This document shows, piece after piece, positions 25,177 to 26,688 of a DNA stretch of 64,000 bases. Within the stretch, counting starts at the first letter, position 1. Every line of letters starts with the position of its first letter. Both the position numbers and the translations under genes were made by a program. The notes under the pieces are model-generated. The model saw nothing but the letters and a program-made list of their open reading frames with translations. It was not told the origin of the DNA and ran no database searches. This DNA comes from Fidelibacterota bacterium (GTDB lineage Bacteria; Fidelibacterota; Marinisomatia; SCGC-AAA003-L08; JACNLC01), in NCBI GenBank assembly GCA_024277615.1, contig JAJRUW010000067.1:1-64000 (forward strand), written 5' to 3'.

Positions 25177-25278
25177 ATGTTCAAAGGGTATTTTATAGCA
25201 GCAGTAGCAGCTGTCTGGGTTGTCCTCATCTCCTATATTGTCATGGTCCGCAAGAAGGAAAAAGACAATCTGGACTAA
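25177..25278 (+). CDS. ccmD: Very small CcmD-like membrane protein
   Basis: A 33-residue ORF begins at an ATG two bases after the ccmC stop, with TTGGAGG about eight bases before it. It encodes MFKGYF, one membrane span (about residues 6-23) and a basic tail VRKKEKDNLD. CcmD proteins are exactly this: one span followed by a charged cytoplasmic tail, encoded right after ccmC, and they help release holo-CcmE. The call rests on position, size and topology because CcmD has little sequence conservation. Confidence 0.82.
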   Translation: MFKGYFIAAVAAVWVVLISYIVMVRKKEKDNLD

Positions 25279-25284
25279 AGCCAG

Positions 25285-26688
25285 ATGAATCCGTTCCCAA
25301 TTCCCTGGCGGCTGTTTGGTTTAATCCTGCTGCTGGGTACTTTTCTCCAGTCGCAGGTCGTGCCCTTTGGTGCTCCGGGCTGGCCGATACCGGATGCATT
25401 ACCCATCCGTACGCCGGGGACCCCTGTAACAGTACCCCCCGTGTCTCTGGCCGCTGACGGCGAAACTTCATTTCACGAAGACAGACGCCTTATCCAACTC
25501 CGGATCATACTCCCTGATTCCAGCGGTTACCGACTATTGCTCTCGGCATCATCGCTGACAGATGAAGATCAAGTATTTGTACGCTTTGCGCATGGCTCAG
25601 GCTTCATGGGCCCCTATACCCGGGAACAATTTAGTCCCTCCGGGACACTGACAACGGATGTAATTTTTGAAGCTGATGTTGTTGTTGAATGGGAGAGCTT
25701 CTCGACGGAACCACCTGGGGGTGACATTCTCATTCGGGGTGTATCAGTAAATCCGCCTGTAGCGGCTCAACAGCCTCAGCCAAACCGACCTCAGCCGGTT
25801 AGAAGAGGCAGAGAAAACCCCGTTATTCTCCTTACGGGATACTGGCCGCCAACCAACGAAATGATCCGCCAGTTCAGCCAGAATCCCGAGCTTAATCCGA
25901 ATGGCTGGATGGGAGATGACTGGGAAGGACGGGGATACGATATTGTGAGTTTCTTTCCGGTCTTCGATGTCCCGGATTGCGACGACTGTGGGCAGGGCAG
26001 TGGCGATCTGGAAGTTGACTATCAGGATTCATCATCTGATTTTTGGACTATAGTGGCAGATCTGCAGCCTCTTGCCATCATCACTTTCAGCAGGGGCTGG
26101 ATTGACCACAGCTGGGAACTGGAATGGAATCTCGTCAACCGCACCAACTGGATTTACGATTATACACCGCCAAATCAGCCCACTCCCAATCCGCCGGACC
26201 AGGAGCACCCCGCTTATCTCGTCAGGAATCCCGACCTGCCCCTGGAAGCTATTGTGAACGCCATAAATGCTGCAGAGCTGGGGTTGAACTCTTATGTTGA
26301 CTGGAATGGCACAGCAGGCATGTTCCTGTCTGAATTCATTGGTTATCACGGAATCTGGTATCGGGGAGACAATCCCTATGGGGAGTTCCCCTGTCTGGCG
26401 GCCGGTCATATTCATGTAGGCGGGCAGATCGATTGGGATACGGCCAGAACCGCTGCCGAGATCACCCTCAGACAGCTCACGGATTATCTAGATCAGTTCA
26501 TCTATACACCCGGTGATGCAAATGACGATGGTGTGATCAATGTGCAGGATTTGGTGATCATCGTGAATTACATCCTGGGTCTGGCGGATCCGGATACGGT
26601 CCAATTCTATGCGGCGGATGTCAACACCGATAGCATCATAAACGTATTGGACATTATTATTATTTTGAACATGATCATCGACGCCTGA
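25285..26688 (+). CDS. Secreted pyroglutamyl-peptidase-like (C15-like) protein with dockerin
   Basis: The 467-residue protein has a signal peptide (about residues 5-23), a beta-rich N-terminal region to about 160, a Pro/Gln linker, then a domain (about 178-405) with the pattern of pyroglutamyl peptidase I: VILLTGYWPP near the start, ELEWNLVN (Glu280) where the family has its Glu, TAGMFLSEF (343-351) where the family has AGxxxCN, and GHIHVGG (His377) for FIHVP. The nucleophile Cys position is Ser349. The C-terminus holds two dockerin loops (GDANDDGVINVQD, ADVNTDSIINVLD). It starts six bases after ccmD and may be read through from the ccm operon. The C15 assignment is my alignment by eye. Confidence 0.65.
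   Translation: MNPFPIPWRLFGLILLLGTFLQSQVVPFGAPGWPIPDALPIRTPGTPVTVPPVSLAADGETSFHEDRRLIQLRIILPDSSGYRLLLSASSLTDEDQVFVRFAHGSGFMGPYTREQFSPSGTLTTDVIFEADVVVEWESFSTEPPGGDILIRGVSVNPPVAAQQPQPNRPQPVRRGRENPVILLTGYWPPTNEMIRQFSQNPELNPNGWMGDDWEGRGYDIVSFFPVFDVPDCDDCGQGSGDLEVDYQDSSSDFWTIVADLQPLAIITFSRGWIDHSWELEWNLVNRTNWIYDYTPPNQPTPNPPDQEHPAYLVRNPDLPLEAIVNAINAAELGLNSYVDWNGTAGMFLSEFIGYHGIWYRGDNPYGEFPCLAAGHIHVGGQIDWDTARTAAEITLRQLTDYLDQFIYTPGDANDDGVINVQDLVIIVNYILGLADPDTVQFYAADVNTDSIINVLDIIIILNMIIDA

Follow-up and report, generated by a model that had tools for sequence, protein, structure and literature searches.

Pyroglutamyl peptidase I makes up peptidase family C15, the single family of clan CF, whose catalytic triad consists of Glu, Cys and His (2025 review, PMC12445089). 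The family is described by the Pfam profile PF01470 and is represented by PDB entries 1iof, 1aug and 5z47. Ser at the active-site Cys position is also found in engineered forms of the P. furiosus enzyme, Pcp (PDB 1ioi, 1x10, 1z8t and others), but these are laboratory mutants of a cytoplasmic enzyme, whereas in the protein reported here the Ser is natural, invariant and accompanied by further changes around it. A second system that bears on this locus is the periplasmic glutaminyl cyclase of Bacteroidetes, which turns a Gln at the mature N-terminus into pyroglutamate and thereby stabilises exported proteins, a Gln rule that is reported as not valid across the whole FCB group (PMC5837995, PMC10653852).

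In the window, that is the whole stretch of 64,000 nucleotides analysed here, the preliminary description had singled out an open reading frame for a secreted, dockerin-tagged protein in which the motifs TAGMFLSEF and GHIHVGG seemed to line up with AGxYLCNY and GFIHVP of pyroglutamyl peptidases, with the nucleophile Cys replaced by Ser. The features of this gene and its product are:

25285..26688, plus strand: exported C15-like protein with a dockerin, 467 aa (open reading frame; homologues in 39 genomes of the phylum)
25285..25353, plus strand: signal peptide, residues 1-23, followed by Gln24 (basic, hydrophobic N-terminus; cleavage-like site of A, G or S followed by Q)
25354..25803, plus strand: variable N-terminal region, residues 24-173, without a Pfam match (19% mean family identity)
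25804..26493, plus strand: C15-like core, residues 174-403 (hhalign against C15; 60% mean family identity)
25843..25860, plus strand: WPPTNE, residues 187-192, replacing the C15 loop EPFGGE in the alignment (W187, P188, P189, N191 and E192 invariant)
25978..25989, plus strand: Cys232-x-x-Cys235, in a segment where C15 has a gap (invariant, 37/37)
26122..26124, plus strand: Glu280, at the position of the C15 catalytic Glu (invariant; maps to P. furiosus Pcp E79)
26329..26334, plus strand: Ser349-Glu350, at the positions of the C15 nucleophile Cys and the Asn that follows it (invariant, 38/38)
26407..26415, plus strand: His375-x-His377, where His377 maps to the catalytic His and His375 to an invariant Phe of C15 (both invariant)
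26509..26676, plus strand: type I dockerin, residues 409-464, with two calcium-loop repeats (PF00404, E 3.6e-8)

Export and the dockerin tag are both borne out. The signal peptide, which in the window protein ends in LLLGTFLQS directly before the Gln, is evident in the family, signal peptides having been called by inspection and with a crude script of our own, without a dedicated predictor; the dockerin scores 33.9 bits against a PF00404 cut-off of 22.9 and is the only domain that Pfam and NCBIfam scans of the 467-residue protein detect, the core being left unrecognised. Of 245 genomes searched in the same phylum, 39, distributed over several families and several genera, have one clear homologue each; no more distant relatives were found in these 245 genomes and no relatives in plasmids or viral contigs, and this family of exported proteins is to date known from a single phylum. 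Mean identity within the family falls from 60% in the core to 42% in the dockerin and 19% in the N-terminal region, and the contrast between the first and the last of these values identifies the core as the constrained part. One family copy (L046, G123:C4:11691-12378) is broken by stop codons in its assembly, which could be real decay or sequencing error. In the exported protein, the invariant Cys232-x-x-Cys235 and a nearly invariant Cys370 (26392-26394) could form a disulfide or a metal site.

Profiles of 36 family cores and of 15 true C15 sequences, the latter being P. furiosus Pcp (identical to PDB 1iof) and 14 plasmid-encoded enzymes, were compared with hhalign. This HMM-HMM comparison, which had been proposed as a check on the original assignment, gave a score of 49.4 over 184 columns (E 8.9e-7, probability 91.4), whereas 60 column-shuffled versions reached at most 20.7, the reversed version 19.2, and 43 unrelated natural families taken from the neighbourhoods at most 21.9. 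The N-terminal half (26.9) and the C-terminal half (33.2) each match the corresponding part of C15 separately and co-linearly. When the family alignment was searched against all PDB chains with hmmsearch, the top nine matches were C15 enzymes, each weak (E 0.12-0.25); the first seven of the nine are P. furiosus Pcp variants, and those whose alignments are listed have Ser at the active Cys. A single-sequence search of PDB chains gave weak matches besides the dockerins, the best being pyroglutamyl peptidase 5z47 (residues 303-378, E 0.23). The weakness of these single-sequence and sequence-profile matches, together with the failure of PF01470 to recognise the core (no match to the window protein at E up to 10), is what one would expect if the domain had another fold and its likeness to C15 were convergent or an artefact of alignment, but an hhalign score more than twice that of any control, a co-linear match over the full length in both halves and the stability of the triad mapping on resampling make this very improbable. 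We conclude that the core is almost certainly homologous to C15 over the whole domain, and the relation to pyroglutamyl peptidase I, as judged from sequence, is well supported, being distant but clear. AlphaFold2, run with two sequences only, those of the window protein and of a single close relative, returned a pLDDT of 33, too low for a usable model. PF01470 was over its cut-off in 0 of 244 genomes of the phylum, which are thus without a C15 gene at that cut-off.

In the full-length profile-profile alignment Ser349, within TAGMFLSEF (residues 343-351), and His377, within GHIHVGG (residues 374-380), fall at the positions of the C15 catalytic Cys and catalytic His respectively, just as had been read from the two motifs by eye; the suggested Glu/Ser/His arrangement at the position of the C15 triad is recovered as Glu280/Ser349/His377 in 40 of 40 resampled alignments. 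Mapped onto P. furiosus Pcp, E79 corresponds to E280, N84 to N285, C142 to S349, N143 to E350, F164 to H375 and H166 to H377. Conservation of the serine among homologues, on which the original assignment had been made to depend, is complete (Ser in 38/38), and it is encoded across the family by TCN codons only. In the 38-sequence alignment Glu280 and His377 are likewise invariant, as are Glu350, His375, Gly345, Glu278, Asn285 and Asp292, and His355 is invariant in all 37 sequences readable at this position. Because Ser349 is invariant and aligned on the catalytic Cys, with Glu280 and His377 on the Glu and His, the resemblance of the two motifs to those of pyroglutamyl peptidases goes beyond chance. 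Since the place of the Cys in the C15 triad is taken by Ser throughout and the protein falls outside the Pfam cut-off, it is a variant related to C15, rather than a C15 member.

The likeness to C15 is one of full-length profile homology: among C15 columns with a conservation of 90% or more, 29 are aligned, and 11 of these retain their residue, including the catalytic Glu and His. Besides these two positions, the family has in common with P. furiosus Pcp the Gly of the nucleophile loop, Asn84, Pro61, Pro116, Tyr147 and Gly163. It differs from C15 in having Ser for Cys, Glu for the following Asn, His375 for Phe164 and GYWPPTNE for the loop GFEPFGG, and in its additional CxxC segment, its export, its N-terminal region and its dockerin. 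In C15 structures the GFEPFGG loop holds the aromatic residues of the pyroglutamate pocket, and with its replacement by GYWPPTNE the pyroglutamyl specificity may therefore be lost. His375-x-His377, Glu350 and His355 are invariant additions that lie near C15 active-site positions in sequence, as could be expected if a C15-like domain had been converted to other chemistry, for example with a metal site made of His375, His377, Glu350 and His355, and to a different substrate. We regard such a conversion as quite unlikely, given that Glu280 and Ser349 are equally invariant and not obviously needed by a metal site, and that neither a known metal motif nor a Pfam metallo-family was found.

The reading that we favour, with a probability of about 0.5, is that the protein is an exported C15-related serine amidohydrolase which uses a Ser nucleophile and unblocks peptides, both its catalysis and its substrate being predicted. 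Glu280 would orient His377, which would activate Ser349 for attack on the carbonyl to give an acyl-enzyme, and the enzyme would act outside the cytoplasm, at the cell surface or beyond. A Cys-to-Ser change usually abolishes the activity of a cysteine peptidase, hence an active Ser form would need a remodelled site. The loss of the thiol nucleophile and a rebuilt loop with Trp, Pro, Asn and Glu as invariant residues would also suit a C15 homologue that has lost catalysis and serves as a surface binding or sorting protein for N-termini with pyroglutamyl or a similar residue; pyroglutamyl ends may occur on some exported proteins of the group, and an assembly role fits the dockerin. This seems unlikely to us, because in a protein that only binds some of the catalytic residues should have been lost, whereas Glu280, Ser349 and His377 are kept in all 38 sequences. 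No described Ser form of C15 was found in the literature searched, a coverage outside which most subscription journals fall, in agreement with the preliminary description, which knew of no enzyme like it, and the serine amidohydrolase proposed here may represent the first naturally occurring serine form of such a peptidase. If so, it would add a new example of cysteine/serine nucleophile exchange, with the natural Ser fixed in many genera and the accompanying changes (Glu350, His375 and the WPPTNE loop) amenable to direct test.

Of 33 family members, 32 have Gln as the first residue of the mature protein, and the genome of the window encodes a secreted homologue of type II glutaminyl cyclase (L143:872-1807, minus strand, contig C9), whose own signal peptide likewise precedes a Gln and which matches the glutamine cyclotransferase 6qro best in the PDB (E 4e-50); a type I glutaminyl cyclase was looked for in vain. 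Taken together, the Gln and the cyclase homologue indicate that pyroglutamyl N-termini are probably present in the envelope of this organism, and the cyclase homologue suggests that pyroglutamyl capping of exported proteins extends beyond Bacteroidetes. A strict Q-rule in the group was considered and rejected: among secreted open reading frames outside the family, Gln is the commonest residue at +1, yet it is found there in 10 of 44 in a crude scan. The best PDB matches of the cyclase homologue are glutamine cyclotransferases of Bacteroidota.

The C-terminal type I dockerin, with its two calcium-loop repeats, is like that of exported proteins in cohesin-dockerin systems, and cohesins likewise occur in the genome, where three cohesin domains in a row are over the cut-off (G000:C90:2978-4684). 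The dockerin may thus have a partner and probably docks the protein to a cohesin-bearing surface protein; unlike in typical cohesin-dockerin systems, the attached domain here is not a glycoside hydrolase. About 78 dockerin-type matches accompany the three tandem cohesin-like domains in this genome, a possible non-cellulosomal scaffold system.

No conserved operon was found around the family gene, whose neighbourhood varies by lineage. An Asparaginase_2 gene lies downstream of the family gene and overlaps it in genome G180, and is found within a few kb of it in G145, G117, G115 and G024; four genomes of genus g5 have a gamma-glutamyl transpeptidase gene downstream of the family gene, and in g6 a peptidase E gene is convergent with the family gene. 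These neighbour enzyme families are low-copy (0-3 matches per genome). The association with enzymes of unusual peptide bonds, which was noticed after the fact and differs between lineages, is suggestive, and since such neighbours recur in several lineages, the proposed amidohydrolase would act on an N-terminal residue that is blocked or otherwise unusual. Pyroglutamyl heads the candidates, since N-termini of this kind are probably formed in the organism's own envelope. A more specific proposal, that the protein is a natural serine peptidase, the first in clan CF, docked at the surface of a bacterium in which part of the exported proteins carry a pyroglutamate cap, and removing pyroglutamyl or a related blocked N-terminal residue as the counterpart of the glutaminyl cyclase, is tentative and on balance doubtful; if true, it would suggest that pyroglutamyl-capped exported proteins are handled by enzymes outside Bacteroidetes as well. 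The loci at which an isoaspartyl peptidase, gamma-glutamyl transpeptidase or peptidase E gene stands beside the family gene are L101, L104, L105, L113, L116, L126 and L129.

The theme of unusual-peptide-bond enzymes is absent from the window, in which the gene is preceded by genes that by eye resemble those for cytochrome c maturation and followed by a metallophosphatase-like gene on the opposite strand. The family gene may be read through from this putative cytochrome c maturation cluster. A small open reading frame at 25180-25278, CcmD-like by eye, comes after CcmB- and CcmC-like genes and ends a few bases before the start codon.
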